From: Dyella telluris
GTDB taxonomy: Bacteria; Pseudomonadota; Gammaproteobacteria; Xanthomonadales; Rhodanobacteraceae
Assembly (NCBI RefSeq): GCF_014297575.1
Contig: NZ_CP060412.1
Coordinates: 2,108,001 to 2,172,000 of the forward strand
DNA: 64,000 nt
Direction: 5' to 3'
Program-made: the position numbers and the translations under genes
The notes under the pieces: generated by a model
Databases searched by the model: none
Seen by the model: only the letters and a program-made list of their open reading frames with translations
What the model was told of the DNA's origin: nothing
Shown: positions 6,787 through 63,235 of the stretch, piece by piece
How positions within the stretch are numbered: position 1 is the stretch's first letter
Layout of the letters: each line of letters opens with the position of its first letter

Positions 6787-6882
6787 GGGTAACCTCCGGC
6801 GGGCGAGACCCGCGAAGGTAGCGCCGCATCCGGCATACGGGCGTGAAGGTGCACCGTTCCCGGCGCACCTTCACTGCTGCCG

Positions 6883-34900: not shown

Positions 34901-35121
34901 GTGCCGCGTTGCCGCTGGCCGTGGGTTTCGGCATCGGCTCCGAACTGCGCCAGCCGCTGGGCGTGGCCATCGTCGGCGGCCTGCTGGTGTCGCAGTTGCT
35001 GACGTTGTTGAGTACGCCGGCGATTTACCTGTGGAATTACGACAGGAAGGTGCGCAAGGAGGAGCGGCAGGCGCGGCGGGCGGCGAAGCGGGCGTTGAAG
35101 GCGCAGACGGTAGTGGGGTGA
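31966..35121 (+). CDS. RND (HAE1) multidrug efflux permease, orphan copy 2
   Basis: 1051 residues from the GTG at 31966, exactly the length of the copy at 8616-11771. The GTG gives VNFFAPLIRRPIG, aligning with MNIFAPLIRRPVG of the paralogue. The TTG at 31957 would add three unmatched residues. Proton-relay DD (GFVVDDAIVVIEN) and Lys (GIVKKNAILMVDF) are conserved. No fusion or outer-membrane gene is adjacent. The two permeases are close in the membrane parts and diverge most in the periplasmic porter region (residues about 560-800), so substrate range may differ. Confidence 0.93.
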   Translation: MNFFAPLIRRPIGTSVLAFGLALAGFWAYLLLGVAALPSLEFPGMVVYTELPGANAQTMAATVAAPLERHLGRIPGIKEMHSESNDGSTSVRIIFNFGNNTDKVARDVEAAINASMADLPAGIPIPPRYYKFNTANIPVLLLSLTSTTLPPDKLYDLADTLINPAISQIPGVAQVRVIGGRPKAVRVELNTAALAAKGLTANDVANTLRAANVTSPEGALSDGRTQMTVSATDALSTPQQFGNLLIAVQKGAPVRLSDVAKVTTGQQDEYQAAWFNDHRAVAIRISKRPEANAVATADAVRAKLPQMRAWLPADLQITPIFDLTQTTKSALHEVEIALLLSVLLVAAVMLVFLRRVGPTLIAMLSVPLSLAGAFTVMWTLGFTLNTLSLVALVLCIGFVVDDAIVVIENIVRHMEHGSPPLQASLDGVTEIGFTVVSITLSLIAVFAPLLFGNNQFTMLLREFSVTLTAAVVISAVISLTLTPALCGRFLTLENAGDRQPNRMEQALARFDRGLHDVYERALDWAMHHRRLMRWQPLILLLLTIGMAMSVVKLYGFDFMPKEDIGMIQGDVRADTNISPTLMAERAKKAAAIMVADPAIRDVTTFLGSDNAGGAVGNQATMFVDLKPKGHGPGMRADSMKDIIARLNKAYEKIPELHVSLNSIGFFNDNNDSSRGSQSFQLVSSNNIDLQPWAYKVTELMRKHKEFRDISSDYDNVDKQQMLTVDRLAAGRLHLNMGNIDSALYNAFGQRQVSIIYSNINQYWVVLTSSSERSLSPDTLLNTYVRSDIGSMVPLSAVAHIAPNVTPSFVIHTNQLEATQIYYNTEQGFPQNKATDLINQIVDDARLPAGVQLGYSGEAKNLEETRSNANVLLLGSILAMYIVLGILYESLGHPLTILSTLPAAGAGAFLAMLVTGTPMSLMAIIAILMLIGIVKKNAILMVDFALVAQREHGRSPPEAIREAALVRFRPITMTTLVAMGAALPLAVGFGIGSELRQPLGVAIVGGLLVSQLLTLLSTPAIYLWNYDRKVRKEERQARRAAKRALKAQTVVG

Positions 35122-35171
35122 GGGATTGGTGGTGGTGAAGAAGAAGGAAATCTCGCCATTCCGTTTCATTC

Positions 35172-36232
35172 TTTAGCCGTCACCCCAGCGGACGCTGGGG
35201 TCCAGTGACTTGCCTTGGCTCTTCGCCTCGGACGCTTCCGCGACCGGGCCGCTTACGCAGCGGGCGTTCCGACCTCCTGCCGGAGGCCGGGTCACTTTTC
35301 TTTGCTTGCCCAAAGTCCCACGGGGATTAGCTTCGCGTCAAAAGTAACCAAAAGAAAAGGCACCCCCATCGCGGCGCTGGCCGGTGAAGCCGGCCAGTCC
35401 GTGAGGGTCGGCCGGGCTTTTCGACAGGGCGTCCTGCCCTGTCGAAAAGGGATCGGCATCCTTGCCGATCCCCCTGCGGGCCTGTCGTCCGCCCCTCACC
35501 GCCGCTCAAGGGGTCGGGTAGGTCAAAAGCCAGAACCGAAGGCTCGTGCAGCTGCGCTGCACATCGCGTCGCAGGGTGCGATGACGCATGGCGTGCAGGC
35601 TCAGCTTGTCTGTAGGAGCGCACTTGTTCGCGACCACCTGACGGAGCGGTATCGACATGACGCTGCGGTCGCGCCCCAGTGCGCTCCTACAGGGGGTGTC
35701 TCGCACCGTGTGAAGCCCGCTTTTCCCTCGCCTCAGTGCTCACCCCAGTCCTCTCCCGAACGGGAGAGGACGAGCGACAGGGGATGTTCAACGTGAACAC
35801 CCTAGGGGCAAGGAAGGCGGTGCCGCGCAGCGGCACGACGCTCCGCGTTAAGTCCTCTTCGCTTCGGCGCGTTGCGAAGCGCTTGGAAGTACCCGCTGTG
35901 TAGAGGCGGAGGTTGTCCCGCAACCGGGCTTCCTCAAGCTCACCGGGCTTATCCCAACAGAATGCTGCCAGCTCTTAGGGCCATTTTCTTTGGGTTACTT
36001 TTCTTTTGGGCCAGCAAAAGAAAAGTGACTCGGCCTCCGGCAGGAGGTCGAAACGCCCCCGCGGCGTAAGCGGCAACCTGGCGCCGGCATGACTACCGAA
36101 GGCACAGAGCAAAGTCACTGGATTCCCGCCTTCGCGGGAATGACGATCAAAAGAACGAAGCCCTCGGGCGATAACCGACCACCAACGCTCCAAATCTCCG
36201 CCTGCGCCGGGATGACGGCTAAAGGATGATGT
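35172..36232 (+). repeat. Hairpin-mosaic intergenic repeat, full copy A
   Basis: About 1.06 kb without a credible gene, nearly the whole of the 1170-bp gap. It matches 53161-52100 in inverted orientation along its length. In order it holds: CCCCAGCG/CGCTGGGG (35183), a TTTCTTTG/CAAAG palindrome broken by an insert (35295), CTGGCCGG/CCGGCCAG (35377), CGACAGGGC/GCCCTGTCG (35421), GGATCGGCA/TGCCGATCC (35450), a REP-like pair (35611-35691), TCCTCTCCCG/CGGGAGAGGA (35750), GTGCCGC/GCGGCAC (35820), ACTTTTCTTTTG/CAAAAGAAAAGT (35998) and ATTCCCGC/GCGGGAAT (36122). Short ORFs inside are read in both directions and follow the repeat units. Confidence 0.85.
35611..35691. repeat. REP-like inverted pair, copy 3 (inside mosaic copy A)
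   Basis: TGTAGGAGCGCACTTGTTCG at 35611 and its inverse ending GTGCGCTCCTACA at 35691. The first unit has lost its own hairpin (GCGCAC against TTCGCG). It is embedded in the mosaic repeat at the same place as the pair in copy C. Confidence 0.85.
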
Positions 36233-36291
36233 TGCGAAGCGAGCAACACCCCTCACCCCAACCCTCTGCTCAAAGGATAAACCACGCCTCG

Positions 36292-36762
36292 TCAGTCCTT
36301 CGGACTCGTGCACGCCGCATAACGGCGCCCCTCCACCTGCACCACATCCTCACCCTTGATATTGATCCGCGCCACGTAATGCTCCGCCGAATCAAACTTC
36401 ACCTGCCCACGCGCCGCGTCCATCAACCCTTGGCACTGCACCGTCCAGCTCAACGCCGTGCTACTGCGATGCTGGTCAACACGCTCGCATTGCGCATGGC
36501 CGGGCACAGGGAGGTTGGCGAACTCCACCCACGGGTCCGGGCTTTCGTCCACGCAATGCCACGTTACCTGCGGCTGTCCTTGCTTGCCGTGCTCAAACAC
36601 CCGCGTGACGATCTTCCACAGGCCGGGCATGGCCTGGAAATCGCCGGGGTCCGCGTGGCCCGGCTCGCCGACCAGTGCGGCGATCAGCAGCACCAGCACC
36701 GCGACGGTGCGCGCTACCGCATGGCCGCGATGGCCGGGGGCGGGTTGGCTGAAAGGGTCCAT
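36292..36762 (-). CDS. Exported DUF3617-like protein
   Basis: 156 residues from the ATG at 36762 (a second ATG at 36780 adds six). A hydrophobic signal segment (TVAVLVLLIAALVGEPGHA) precedes FQAMPGLWKIVTRV, the PGLW start typical of DUF3617 proteins. Four Cys are present, including the C-terminal RRYAACTSPKD. Periplasmic location is likely. The function is unknown. It lies 74 bp downstream of the phosphoesterase gene on the same strand and may be co-transcribed. Confidence 0.65.
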   Translation of the reverse strand: MDPFSQPAPGHRGHAVARTVAVLVLLIAALVGEPGHADPGDFQAMPGLWKIVTRVFEHGKQGQPQVTWHCVDESPDPWVEFANLPVPGHAQCERVDQHRSSTALSWTVQCQGLMDAARGQVKFDSAEHYVARINIKGEDVVQVEGRRYAACTSPKD

Positions 36763-45149: not shown

Positions 45150-45500
45150 CTCACCCCGGCCCTCTCCCCGAAGGGGAGAGGGAGAAGTGAGAGGCCCCGC
45201 AAGACCACCAAACCACACGACGCTCTGTCTTAAGTCCTCAGCGCATTGGCGCGTTGCGAAGCGCTTTGATGTACCCGCTGTGTAGAGGCGGAGGTTGTCC
45301 CACAACACCGTTCCTCAGCCGCTCGGGCTTTTCCCATCGGCATGCTGCCAGCCTTTAAGGCCATTTCTTTGGGTTACTTTTCTTTGGGCCAGCAAAGAAA
45401 AGTGACTCGGCCTCCGGCAGGAGGTCGAGACGCCTCCGCGGCGTAAGCGGCAACCTTGCGCCTGCATGACTACCGAAGGCACAGAGCAAAGGCACTGGAC
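45150..45500 (+). repeat. Hairpin-mosaic intergenic repeat, partial copy B
   Basis: Matches the right part of copy A (about 35740-36122) in the same orientation: CTCTCCCC/GGGGAGAG hairpin, the CGTTGCGAAGCGCTT segment, the TGTGTAGAGGCGGAGGTTGT segment, the ACTTTTCTTTG/CAAAGAAAAGT palindrome and the GGCCTCCGGCAGGAGG block. The left half (with the REP-like pair) is absent. Together with two terminators it fills the 565-bp gap 45060-45624. Confidence 0.8.
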
Positions 45501-52099: not shown

Positions 52100-53161
52100 C
52101 TACATCGTCATCCCGGCGCAGGCCGGGTCTAGTTTCCGTAGTGGTCGGCAATCGCCCCCGGCGTTTCATTCTTTTGACCGTCATTCCAGCGAGGCGCTTT
52201 TCACCCGCCGGGGGGCTGGTCAAGCTGGGATCCAGTGCCTTTGCTCTCTGCCTTCGGTAGTCATGCCCGCGCCAGGTTGCCGCTTACGCCACGGAGGCGT
52301 TTCGACCTCCTGCCGGAGGCCGAGTCACTTTTCTTTTGCTGGCCCAAAAGAAAAGTAACCCAAAGAAAATGGCCCTAAAGGCTGGCAGCATGCCGTGGGG
52401 ATAAGCCCGAACGGCTGAGGAACGTTGCTGCTTGGCAACCTCCGCCTCTACACAACGGGTACTTCCAAGCGCTTCGCAACGCGCCGATGCGAAGAGGGCT
52501 TAACGCGGAGCGTCGTGCCGCTGCGCGGCACCTCCTTCCTTGCCACTTGGTGGTTCACGTTGAACATCACCTGTCGCTCGTCTCCTCCCGTTCGGGAGAG
52601 GACTGGGGTGAGCACTGAGGCGAGAAAGAAACGGGCTTCACACGGTGCGAGACACCCCCTGTAGGAGCGCACTTGGGCGCGACCGCAGCGCCCTGTCGAT
52701 ACCGCTCCGTCAGGTGGTCGCGCACAGGGTGCGCTCCTACAGACAAGCTAAACCGGTACTCCATGCGCCGTCGCGCCTGCGACGCGATGTGCAGCGCAGC
52801 TGCACGAGCCTTCGGCTCGAGGCTTTTGACCTACCCCTCCCCTTGAGCGGCGGTGAGGGGCGGACGACAGGCCCGCAGGGGGATCGGCAAGGATGCCGAT
52901 CCCTTTTCGACAGGACAGGGAGGTCCTGTCGAAAAGCCCGGCCGACCCTCACGGACTGGCCGGCTTCACCGGCCAGCGCCGCGATGGGGGTGCCTTTTCT
53001 TTTGGTTACTTTTCTTTGGGCAAGCAAAGAAAAGTGACCCGGCCTCCGGCAGGAGGACGGAACGCCCGCTGCGCAGGCGGCCCGGTCGCGGTAGCGCTAG
53101 AACCCGAAGGCCCAAGGCAAAGTCACTGGACCCTGCCTACGCAGGGGTGACGGCTAAAGAA
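52100..53161 (-). repeat. Hairpin-mosaic intergenic repeat, full copy C (inverted)
   Basis: About 1.06 kb matching copy A (35172-36232) end to end on the opposite strand, with the same order of hairpins and an intact second TTTCTTTG/CAAAGAAA palindrome at 53010-53037. It contains a REP-like pair at 52660-52741. It occupies most of the 1235-bp gap between the AraC and S9 peptidase genes. The ORFs read here are fragments of repeat sequence with matching ones in copy A. None has a good ribosome site or family match. Confidence 0.85.
52660..52741. repeat. REP-like inverted pair, copy 5 (inside mosaic copy C)
   Basis: TGTAGGAGCGCACTTGGGCG at 52660 and its inverse ending GGGTGCGCTCCTACA at 52741. 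It is the counterpart of the pair at 35611-35691 in the inverted copy. Confidence 0.85.
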
Positions 53162-61095: not shown

Positions 61096-61208
61096 GAGCA
61101 CTTGTTCCTTTTTCGTTAAATAGTCGGCATCACGCCACCTTAACGGGGCGGATTGAACTGCCTGTGAACCGGGGATGCGGATGTTCAGCGTAGGCGCGCG
61201 ACGACGCC

Positions 61209-62111
61209 CTAGGGGCCGTCCGGCAAGGCTGCCAGGGCTTCATCATACAAACTAAGCTCGGTCGACATACCCACCGTGCCGCTGATGGCCGCCACCATAG
61301 CCAGGGCGAGCCAGCCGAAACCGAAGCTCATCAGCAGCAAAGCGGCGCACGGCACCGCGTAGACCAGCAGCGCCGCCAGATAACGCCCCGGCTGCAATTC
61401 CAGCCGACCACGCGGCCCCACCACCCGCTGCAGCGCGGCCTGCCAACGCAAGCTTTCCACCAGGCCACGCAGCAGGGCCAGCACCAGCAGGCCGACGATC
61501 CATGCGGTGGGATGCAGGTCGGTGTTGTCGGCGCCCTGGCCGGCGGCGCAGAGCCACAGCCACAGGCCGCCCCCGTACGTCGCCGACACCACGCGGCTCA
61601 GCGGCAATTGCGTGGCCAGATGGTGATCCATCTCCGGCGCCTGGCGGCGTCCGTCGGCGTAAGCGGTAACGATGAGGCAGCACAGGCTGCACAAGGCCAT
61701 GGCCGCACCGGCCAGACGCGTGGCCCAGAAGGTGTTGTCACCACGCGCCAGACCGGCCACCGCCAGCACCGGCAAGGTGCAGGCGAGGGCGATCAAAGCA
61801 TCGCGCGTGGGTCGCGACCCCTTGCCGAGGACCCAACCGTGCCAGTGCGGCATCCAGCGCGAATGAAAGCCCGCCGCCGCCAGTCCAAAAGCCACCAGCA
61901 GCGCACCGAGGGCGAGGGGTACCAGCACATCGCCGCGTCCTCCGGGATACACGCCCACGGCCAGCGCCAGCCCGAGCACCATCCACAAGCCAAACCCGTT
62001 GTAGCCGCCGACATGCAACAGGGTGGCCGCCAGCGGACGTGGACGCGCCCGGAGCGGGGGTTGTCCGTAGCCCGCGGAGGCATGCCTGGAAGTGGAACGG
62101 AGCGGCTTCAT
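61209..62111 (-). CDS. Integral membrane protein of unknown function
   Basis: 300 residues with about eight hydrophobic spans (FGLWMVLGLALAVGVYPG, VLVPLALGALLVAFGLAAAGF, ALIALACTLPVLAVAGLA, and a last pair ALLVYAVPCAALLLMSFGFGWLALAMV). The topology and the mid-chain HLATQLPLSRVV segment recall polytopic anchor subunits such as DmsC, but no catalytic partner is adjacent and I do not call it. The start is uncertain: 62111 (ATG) is used, with an in-frame start at 62147 also possible. Confidence 0.55.
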   Translation of the reverse strand: MKPLRSTSRHASAGYGQPPLRARPRPLAATLLHVGGYNGFGLWMVLGLALAVGVYPGGRGDVLVPLALGALLVAFGLAAAGFHSRWMPHWHGWVLGKGSRPTRDALIALACTLPVLAVAGLARGDNTFWATRLAGAAMALCSLCCLIVTAYADGRRQAPEMDHHLATQLPLSRVVSATYGGGLWLWLCAAGQGADNTDLHPTAWIVGLLVLALLRGLVESLRWQAALQRVVGPRGRLELQPGRYLAALLVYAVPCAALLLMSFGFGWLALAMVAAISGTVGMSTELSLYDEALAALPDGP

Positions 62112-62254: not shown

Positions 62255-63235
62255 ATGGATCGTTACGAGCGCATTCTCACCCTGCACCGATTGCTGAAGT
62301 CGGCGCACTATCCCGTGCCTCTGCCTCGTCTGATGGACGAGCTGGAGTGCTCGCGAGCGACGCTTTACCGCGACGTGGCGTTCCTGCGCGATGCGCTGGG
62401 CGCGCCCATCGAGAGCGCGGGCGGCGAACATGCCGCATTCCGCTATGCCGCTGGCGAAGGCGAACGTTTCGAATTGCCGGGACTGTGGCTGACCTCCGAT
62501 GAACTGGCCGCGCTGCTCGCCCTCAACGAACTGATCGGTCGCAGCGGGCCTGGTGTACTTGCGGGTGCCCTCGCGCCATTCAAGGCGCGCATCGAGCACC
62601 TGCTCTCCGACCAGGGCACCGGGAAAACGCTGCCCATCGAGCGCATCCGCGTGATCGCCTGGGGTGAGCGCAAGCTCGACCAGCAGGTGTTCCGCGTGGT
62701 GGCCGGCGCCGTGCTGGAGCGCAAGCAGCTGCGCTTCCGCTACCGCGCGCGCACCACCAATGCCGACAGCCATCGCCGCGTGTCGCCGCAACGCCTCACG
62801 CACTATCGCGACAACTGGTACCTGGACGTGTGGGACCACGACCGCGAAGCACTGCGCAGCTTCGCCGTTGACCGCATTGCCGAGCCGCAGGCGCTGGACG
62901 AACCGGCCCGCGACGTGGCCGAGCAGGATCTCAACGACGCACTTGCCTCCAGCTACGGCATCTTCGCCGGCAAACCCAAGGCGTGGGCCACGCTGCGCTT
63001 CTCGCAGCACGCCGCGCGCTGGGTGGCGGACGAGCACTGGCATTCGCAGCAGAAGGGCGAATGGCTGCCGGACGGCCGCTACGAACTGCAGGTGCCTTAC
63101 TCCAATTCCAAGGAACTGCTGATGGACGTACTCAAGTACGGTCCGGACGCGGAAGTCGTGGCGCCGCTGTCGCTGCGCGAGGAAATGAAGATCCAGCTGC
63201 AGCTGGCCCTGGGTGGATATCAAAGCGAGAAGTGA
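62255..63235 (+). CDS. YafY/WYL-domain transcriptional regulator
   Basis: 326 residues. The N-terminal HTH (DRYERILTLHRLLKSAHYPVPLPRLMDELECSRATLYRDVAFLRDALG) is followed by a WYL domain, with the signature NWYLDVWDHD at about 187 and the Sm-like fold around RKQLRFRYRAR. The C-terminal WCX part follows. WYL regulators sense nucleotides or DNA damage products, and some control defence loci. No defence genes are in view. Its stop lies inside the left arm of the second GAGTGAG palindrome. Confidence 0.87.
   Translation: MDRYERILTLHRLLKSAHYPVPLPRLMDELECSRATLYRDVAFLRDALGAPIESAGGEHAAFRYAAGEGERFELPGLWLTSDELAALLALNELIGRSGPGVLAGALAPFKARIEHLLSDQGTGKTLPIERIRVIAWGERKLDQQVFRVVAGAVLERKQLRFRYRARTTNADSHRRVSPQRLTHYRDNWYLDVWDHDREALRSFAVDRIAEPQALDEPARDVAEQDLNDALASSYGIFAGKPKAWATLRFSQHAARWVADEHWHSQQKGEWLPDGRYELQVPYSNSKELLMDVLKYGPDAEVVAPLSLREEMKIQLQLALGGYQSEK

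Follow-up and report, generated by a model that had tools for sequence, protein, structure and literature searches.

The hairpin-rich element of about 1 kb that occurs twice in the window (the whole stretch of DNA that was analysed, 64,000 nucleotides) is a dispersed intergenic mosaic repeat, and in that respect it is ordinary. What is unusual, judging from sequence, is its core (X): a structured module that appears homologous to a predicted CsrA-binding RNA and is repeated in dozens of copies between terminator-like caps. We put the probability at roughly 55% that the element is a terminator-capped intergenic mosaic that has spread, in many copies, a predicted CsrA/RsmA-binding decoy RNA.

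Under this proposal, the transcript of X would come from the strand opposite that of copy A, run from the interior of the element outwards and stop at the cap, the T-rich palindrome of which would also end transcripts arriving from the flanking gene. The RNA would display at least two CA(N)GGA loops holding CsrA/RsmA, and dozens of X copies would buffer the protein. As the X core is repeated in dozens of copies, the genome may carry dozens of regulatory decoys. Both transcription and RsmA binding are steps that we infer, and the action of X as an RNA decoy has about an even chance of being correct.

Organization and chromosomal copies of the element

Copy A (35172-36232, plus strand) and the inverted copy B align over ∼1.05 kb in a DNA search (86% identity; mean column identity of 90% in a two-row alignment) and carry an identical series of hairpins in conserved order, as the original prediction stated for the full kilobase. 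Inverted-repeat pairs of ≥12 nt with arms ≤120 nt apart number six in copy A and eight in copy B, and since palindromes too short for a 12-nt listing lie between these pairs, the claim of about ten hairpins was a fair reading. Searches with the DNA in phage and plasmid collections, and with the exact pattern of the element in viral contigs, gave no match, and a phage or plasmid origin was rejected.

From left to right, copy A consists of a CGTC-type REP, the cap, X, a REPIN, Y, the inverted cap, and an inverted REP (Table 1). The block conserved across 40 aligned copies from the same genome runs from ∼35182 to 36150, with similarity dropping beyond it, and judged across copies the ends are fuzzy. 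They are mutually inverted over ∼140 nt (up to ∼140 to 190 nt at 76 to 93% identity), forming terminal inverted repeats of the MITE type. The CGTC tag, short stem and CCA tail are found at many element ends, several of them altered or lengthened; the strict CGTC-1 REP pattern has 42 matches genome-wide, three of which are at element copies. Within the T-rich palindrome of the left cap, copy A has a 24-nt insert (35316-35339). The REP-like pair reported inside the element proved to be a REPIN, i.e., an inverted REP pair whose arms share exact stretches of 13 to 15 nt with the repeats on both sides of the sole RAYT-type gene. That gene (L086, 1271-1872) is the only Y1_Tnp gene of the genome, and its flanks carry the same REP arms.

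Table 1. Features of the element and its copies, in window positions
Feature	Position	Strand	Basis
Copy A, composite element (REP-cap-X-REPIN-Y-cap-REP)	35172..36160	+	Alignment of 40 copies from the same genome
Left CGTC-type REP hairpin with CCA tail	35178..35209	+	Sequence; family in extract of PMC3733652
Left cap: GC hairpin CCTCCTGCCGGAGG, then T-rich palindrome	35270..35359	+	Sequence; right end matches inverted
X module, predicted TwoAYGGAY/Csr-type RNA	35359..35532	-	R3 and R2 model matches
Terminator-like stem before T-run, 3' end of predicted minus-strand RNA	35360..35377	-	Terminator scan
Hairpin H2 of X, GGA in minus-strand loop	35417..35449	-	Inverted repeats, alignment, loop counts
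Hairpin H3 of X, minus-strand loop CAAGGATG	35450..35471	-	Alignment, loop counts
Internal REPIN, inverted pair of TGTAGGAGCGCAC repeats	35610..35692	+	Inverted repeats, RAYT-region comparison
Y module, hairpin array	35836..36145	+	Alignment, tags, mapping, folding
Right cap, inverted copy of left cap	35980..36047	-	Sequence, alignment
Right CGTC-type REP hairpin	36114..36145	-	Sequence pattern
Y-only copy without REPIN or X	45216..45499	+	Tag at contig position 2153251; 88% identity to Y of copy A
Copy B, composite element	52100..53161	-	Alignment with copy A
X core of copy B, predicted RNA strand	52850..52950	+	R3, E = 5.3e-12

The genome is a single contig of 4.99 Mb, and a DNA search of it yielded near-full copies at 83 to 91% identity (the best 40 of 335 candidates were scored). 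Counting copies genome-wide, as the original prediction proposed, gave 42 X tags and 53 Y tags in scans with ≤3 mismatches, with no match for the reversed control patterns. A Y tag lies downstream of X on the same strand in 36 of the 42 cases, at a spacing of 388 to 643 nt (30 at 388 to 428 nt and six at 498 to 643 nt), which bears out the claim of a composite unit with fixed order. There are also 17 Y tags without a nearby X tag, and the selected sites that were mapped held the full X-REPIN-Y series, REPIN and Y, Y only, or X only. Fixed order together with partial units makes the element a mosaic, and the idea that it is copied or converted as a unit finds support as regards order and dispersal but not as regards indivisibility. 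The opposite outcome envisaged at the outset, palindromes recurring in random order and a single recent local duplication behind the two copies, was rejected: the tags are dispersed over the chromosome and their order is fixed.

The largest arc that contains neither X nor Y tags measures 984 kb (G000:C1 4049077 to 41947), as happened in 0.03% of 20,000 simulations of uniform placement. Neither dnaA nor another usable landmark was found at the contig start.

Structure, loops and homology of the X core

Compared with dinucleotide shuffles, the X part folds far better (z = −5.66 on the minus strand and −7.06 on the plus strand), and the Y part folds weakly better (z = −2.11, with six of 200 shuffles equally good). 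In alignment A4 of X, 90.1% of cells pair, against 38 to 43% in partner-slid controls; 20 of 25 pairs have changed on both sides, giving 215 such cells versus 55 in shuffles, and nine cells have one-sided changes of the G·U type. X is an old module, and its structure is selected. The proposal of a structured transcript thus gains support as to structure in X, on the strand opposite to that read in copy A.

The loops of both hairpins read TCC on the plus strand and hence GGA on the minus strand. An initial hairpin filter demanded TCC or CCC near loops and biased the loop counts, which were repeated without it. In the unfiltered counts GGA lies in the loop of H2 in 38 of 39 and of H3 in 38 of 39 copies from the same genome, in 46 of 48 and 45 of 48 copies from the family, and in 21 of 22 and 17 of 22 distant X sequences, respectively; the loops are near constant on stems that vary. 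Of the 82 hits that the hairpin search retained, four were spurious, being hairpins of the T-rich cap or out of register, and their removal ahead of the stem-pair counts left 78. Minus-strand folds of 40 sequences left GGA unpaired 111 times out of 207 (baseline, 14.6%), a count that is biased because the distant rows had passed the loop filter. X therefore presents GGA in loops or other unpaired stretches, as Csr/Rsm decoys do.

The usual minus-strand loops are CAAGGATG, CAGGATG and ACAGGGACGT, the first being the H3 loop in 26 of 39 copies from this genome. Strict AYGGAY is absent from many of these copies, in which A or G frequently follows the A of the loop. An extract of PMC7652899 gives RUACARGGAUGU as the CsrA SELEX site, CAGGA(U/A/C)G as the hairpin-loop repeats of CsrB and ANGGAN as the loops bound by RsmE, and the X loops match the SELEX site and the CsrB repeats. 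The same extract notes that very stable structure may be disadvantageous for CsrA binding, and the stems of X are longer than those of most SELEX ligands. The genome has one csrA gene.

X had seemed to belong to no named family. An Rfam scan of the window at gathering thresholds gave no match, positions 35100-36300 matched no Rfam model, RF01731 (TwoAYGGAY) included, at E ≤ 5, and the gathering score of RF01731 was not reached in the four family loci scanned. Because the direct scan gave nothing, the link to TwoAYGGAY came to light only with the scanning of distant loci. X sequences of the family served to train model R1, which matched 13 of the 369 genomes at class level, and R2, with 44 training rows, some of them from R1 loci, matched 32 of 398 phylum-level genomes (the source genome is included in both). 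Most of the R1 loci examined share the cap and the hairpins, on stems that differ in sequence; one, L092, has no cap. Rfam was run on 20 loci (L119 and 19 of the 30 obtained with R2), of which RF01731 matched 11 at E ≤ 0.05 and reached its gathering score in seven. All 11 matches are on the strand opposite to the R2 match there, with a further match elsewhere in some loci. A further 18 loci gave matches below threshold in L088, L101 and L095. R2 also recovered RF01731-positive loci from outside its training set.

The reciprocal model, R3, was built from the 11 distant loci on the RF01731 strand, with none from the source genome. Of the 40 aligned copies of that genome it detected X in 37, at E values of 1.8e-13 to 3.1e-8, the next match being at 0.0013. 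These hits occupy 37 places in 36 of 39 loci (one locus with two), including both window copies (L001 and L007); the three loci that R3 did not match (L036, L037 and L038) contain copies that lack the X core. In copy A, R3 matched positions 35403-35502 on the minus strand (E = 1.7e-10), and R2, whose training included an X copy of this genome, matched on the opposite, plus strand (E = 3e-29). The forward (R2/RF01731) and reciprocal (R3) matches identify X, very probably, as a TwoAYGGAY homologue that falls below Rfam's threshold, so the original view that no named family fits was mistaken for the core. According to the Rfam scan outputs, clan CL00106 contains RF01731, RsmY and RsmV. Other Csr/Rsm models matched below threshold (RsmY, 17 bits in L081; RsmV, 20.4 bits in L109).

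Several further observations came from these scans. L213 and L214 have C4 antisense RNA matches in the stretch that also matches TwoAYGGAY. In the window, positions 6843-6875, 61185-61283 and 62882-62961 have weak model matches (E = 0.002 to 0.03) that are probably due to chance. Nine loci of relatives (L048, L049, L052, L064, L069, L070, L073, L076 and L085) carry a second, diverged X subtype inverted beside an ordinary X, as if two RNAs diverged from a common middle. Tandem hairpin arrays with many GGA (or TCC) loops, resembling long decoy arrays, were seen at the phylum level in L222, L227, L230 and L233. The R2 hits L220, L221, L225, L226 and L228 have just H3-H4-like hairpins and are not claimed as homologues.

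Strand, placement and competing explanations

A mosaic acting at the DNA level only, i.e., a non-autonomous repeat of the MITE, REPIN or NIME kind spread by transposition or gene conversion, would need no RNA action, and its perfect hairpins would be kept through template switching or as recognition sites. The inverted ends with REP hairpins at both edges, and the REPIN arms shared with the RAYT-type gene region, favor such a mosaic, as does the scarcity of G·U pairs in X. H2 has no G·U and one A·C and H3 two G·U and three A·C, so that G·U is nearly absent on either strand, which fits DNA palindromes better than ordinary RNA. With a generic hairpin finder, G·U made up six of 945 cells (0.6%) in X and 40 of 1,046 (3.8%) in RNase P (P = 8e-7), the control comprising the 27 of 30 loci with the expected motif; even for RNase P the power of the finder is low (40 G·U versus 28 A·C on the sense strand). 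This scarcity is the chief result against a plain RNA reading, and we take it to reflect either the great stability of the stems or a further process acting on the DNA.

The history of the element also suits a DNA-level repeat. Copy B lies downstream of an S9-type peptidase gene, and the corresponding site was located in 18 other species of the genus, 17 of which were readable (G018 ends at once, and G001, G002, G015 and G016 give no more than 308 to 485 nt). Cap, X or Y pieces are present in 12 of the 17 species, the REPIN alone in G009, and no element piece in four (G007, G010, G017 and G019); in G005 the pieces are reversed. A simple GC-rich, terminator-like hairpin directly follows the peptidase gene at the element-free site of G007, G010 and G019. 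In a tree of 68 X sequences the copies of this genome group together, with the exception of L034, and are 93.9% identical to each other compared with 68 to 88% to those of other species. Variation at one site and this clustering show gain, loss and lineage-specific homogenization. The element appears to have spread as a unit within this lineage, and transposition as the means of spread is a tentative choice, somewhat short of even odds. Some part of the element was matched in all 20 genomes of the genus and in at least 131 of 147 genomes of the family, the source genome included (three candidates were scored in each).

An early, purely DNA-level reading based on the lack of G·U was weakened by the strand asymmetry, the RF01731 matches and the R3 result. 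In 33 nonredundant sequences, the outer stems, found by a strand-neutral search, contain 20 A·C versus four G·U mismatches on the plus strand (one-sided binomial P = 0.0008, treating mismatch events as independent); 20 A·C on the plus strand are 20 G·U on the minus strand. DNA-level action alone leaves this 20:4 asymmetry unexplained, as it does the GGA in both loops of most distant X sequences while the stems vary, and the homology of X to an RNA that Rfam places in the Csr/Rsm clan. We consider it unlikely, if still a serious competitor of the decoy reading.

A second alternative is that the element is chiefly a bidirectional terminator or insulator between genes, with the inner hairpins as passengers. 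A GC hairpin and T-rich palindrome face inwards at both ends, and the placement of the copies is suggestive: as judged with a simple codon-usage gene caller, the neighbors are convergent at 20, tandem at 18 and divergent at one of the 39 callable copies (of 40), against six, 10 and six of the 22 window gaps of ≥100 bp examined with the same caller. Divergent gaps are avoided (P = 0.007); the convergent excess is not significant (P = 0.11). Against a chiefly terminating role, G010, G017 and G019 keep the same convergent gene pair without the element, the same AraC-type neighbor following after ∼127, 265 and 56 bp, respectively, versus 1,238 bp here, and neither two GGA loops nor a 1-kb layout is needed in a terminator. 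This role as the main one is improbable.

The plus strand might instead be the RNA, with UCC loops that pair with ribosome-binding sites. UCC in the loops is the same letters on the other strand, and the plus strand folds slightly better, the minus-strand fold of X being no better than the plus. A comparison of strands by RNAalifold was dropped as a test, since each fold picks the pairs that are legal on its own strand. The A·C excess lies on the plus strand, and the RF01731 matches are on the minus strand, as is the terminator-like end, a stem followed by a T-run, in 34 of 39 X copies of this genome and 37 of 48 of the family; the other end has such a signal in none of 39 and two of 48. In distant X sequences the terminator-like end occurs in two of 19, for which the stretch analysed may be too short, and the two terminator-like sites in the window region are not above chance (1.5 expected in shuffles). 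No sigma-70-like promoter was found in the element, a result of little weight since shuffles also gave ∼0. The supported RNA strand is that opposite to copy A as read, insofar as sequence can tell, and a plus-strand RNA is very unlikely.

A small encoded protein has in its favor the 193-amino-acid open frame that is the longest in copy A, and it can be dismissed: a search of 5.77 billion proteins gave 13 matches to the frame (E ≤ 0.001), all lacking Pfam domains and the three with names being "hypothetical protein," in line with the prediction that the element holds no credible gene.

Significance and comparison with known systems

A decoy-bearing mosaic would join repeat-element biology to posttranscriptional control and would place TwoAYGGAY, an Rfam RNA with no assigned function, in a genomic setting. 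Transcription of the X copies, were it to occur, would by itself yield ∼80 GGA loops in each genome, at two loops for each of the 42 tagged copies. X is also a candidate RsmA-sequestering RNA in the order that holds Xanthomonas, for which an extract of PMC7694677 describes a sequestering RNA outside all known families. A bolder proposal is that this is a class of self-spreading intergenic elements with their own Csr/Rsm decoy and built-in terminators, that copy number sets RsmA buffering, and that TwoAYGGAY is the RNA part of the class across Pseudomonadota. We think this doubtful; if true, the 3' ends of genes would be where copies come and go, their number would differ between species, and the sponge would evolve like a transposon family.

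Known systems resemble parts of the element. CsrB/CsrC and RsmX/Y/Z usually occupy few loci. The element differs from these in its dozens of dispersed copies, its very stable stems and the lack of a recognized promoter, and resembles them in its hairpin loops, which are like CAGGA(U/C)G (extract of PMC7652899). In REPIN/RAYT systems, the likeness is the internal inverted REP pair, which shares its arms with the repeats around the only RAYT-type gene; the difference is that the REPIN here is an insert inside the element and not its edge. As repeat mosaics, the Neisseria intergenic mosaic elements (NIME) are similar to the element, which is distinguished from them and from CGTC-1 REP/dRS3 repeats as an enclosed unit of ∼0.9 kb with an RNA-like core. 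REP hairpins with a CGTC tag and CCA tail bound the element, as in the CGTC-1 REP family, to which Neisseria dRS3 belongs and for which the authors found no associated transposase (extract of PMC3733652). Pseudomonas fluorescens R200/R26 are likewise larger multicopy intergenic repeats (320 and 352 bp; extract of PMC2718517); identity of the element with these repeats is a guess.

The closest relative of the core is TwoAYGGAY, which is predicted to bind CsrA and has a tandem GA in its stem (extract of PMC4333381). In the portions available, it appears as a table row in PMC2864571, in connection with loop stability in PMC11661157, in a single table mention in PMC11701678 and in one sentence in PMC7657543; a link to a multicopy capped repeat was not found in the open-licence literature, covered mostly by title and start of abstract. 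TwoAYGGAY and X share a pair of adjacent hairpins whose loops read A(N)GGA, reciprocal model matches, and a fixed A·A or A·G mismatch in the longer stem, which is present in 35 of 44 aligned rows of the wider X family. The X of this genome departs from TwoAYGGAY in scoring below Rfam's threshold, in the often nonpyrimidine base after the loop A, and in the mismatch of H2, which is an A-T pair in its alignment row. It differs, further, in being present as at least 42 copies within a terminator-capped composite.
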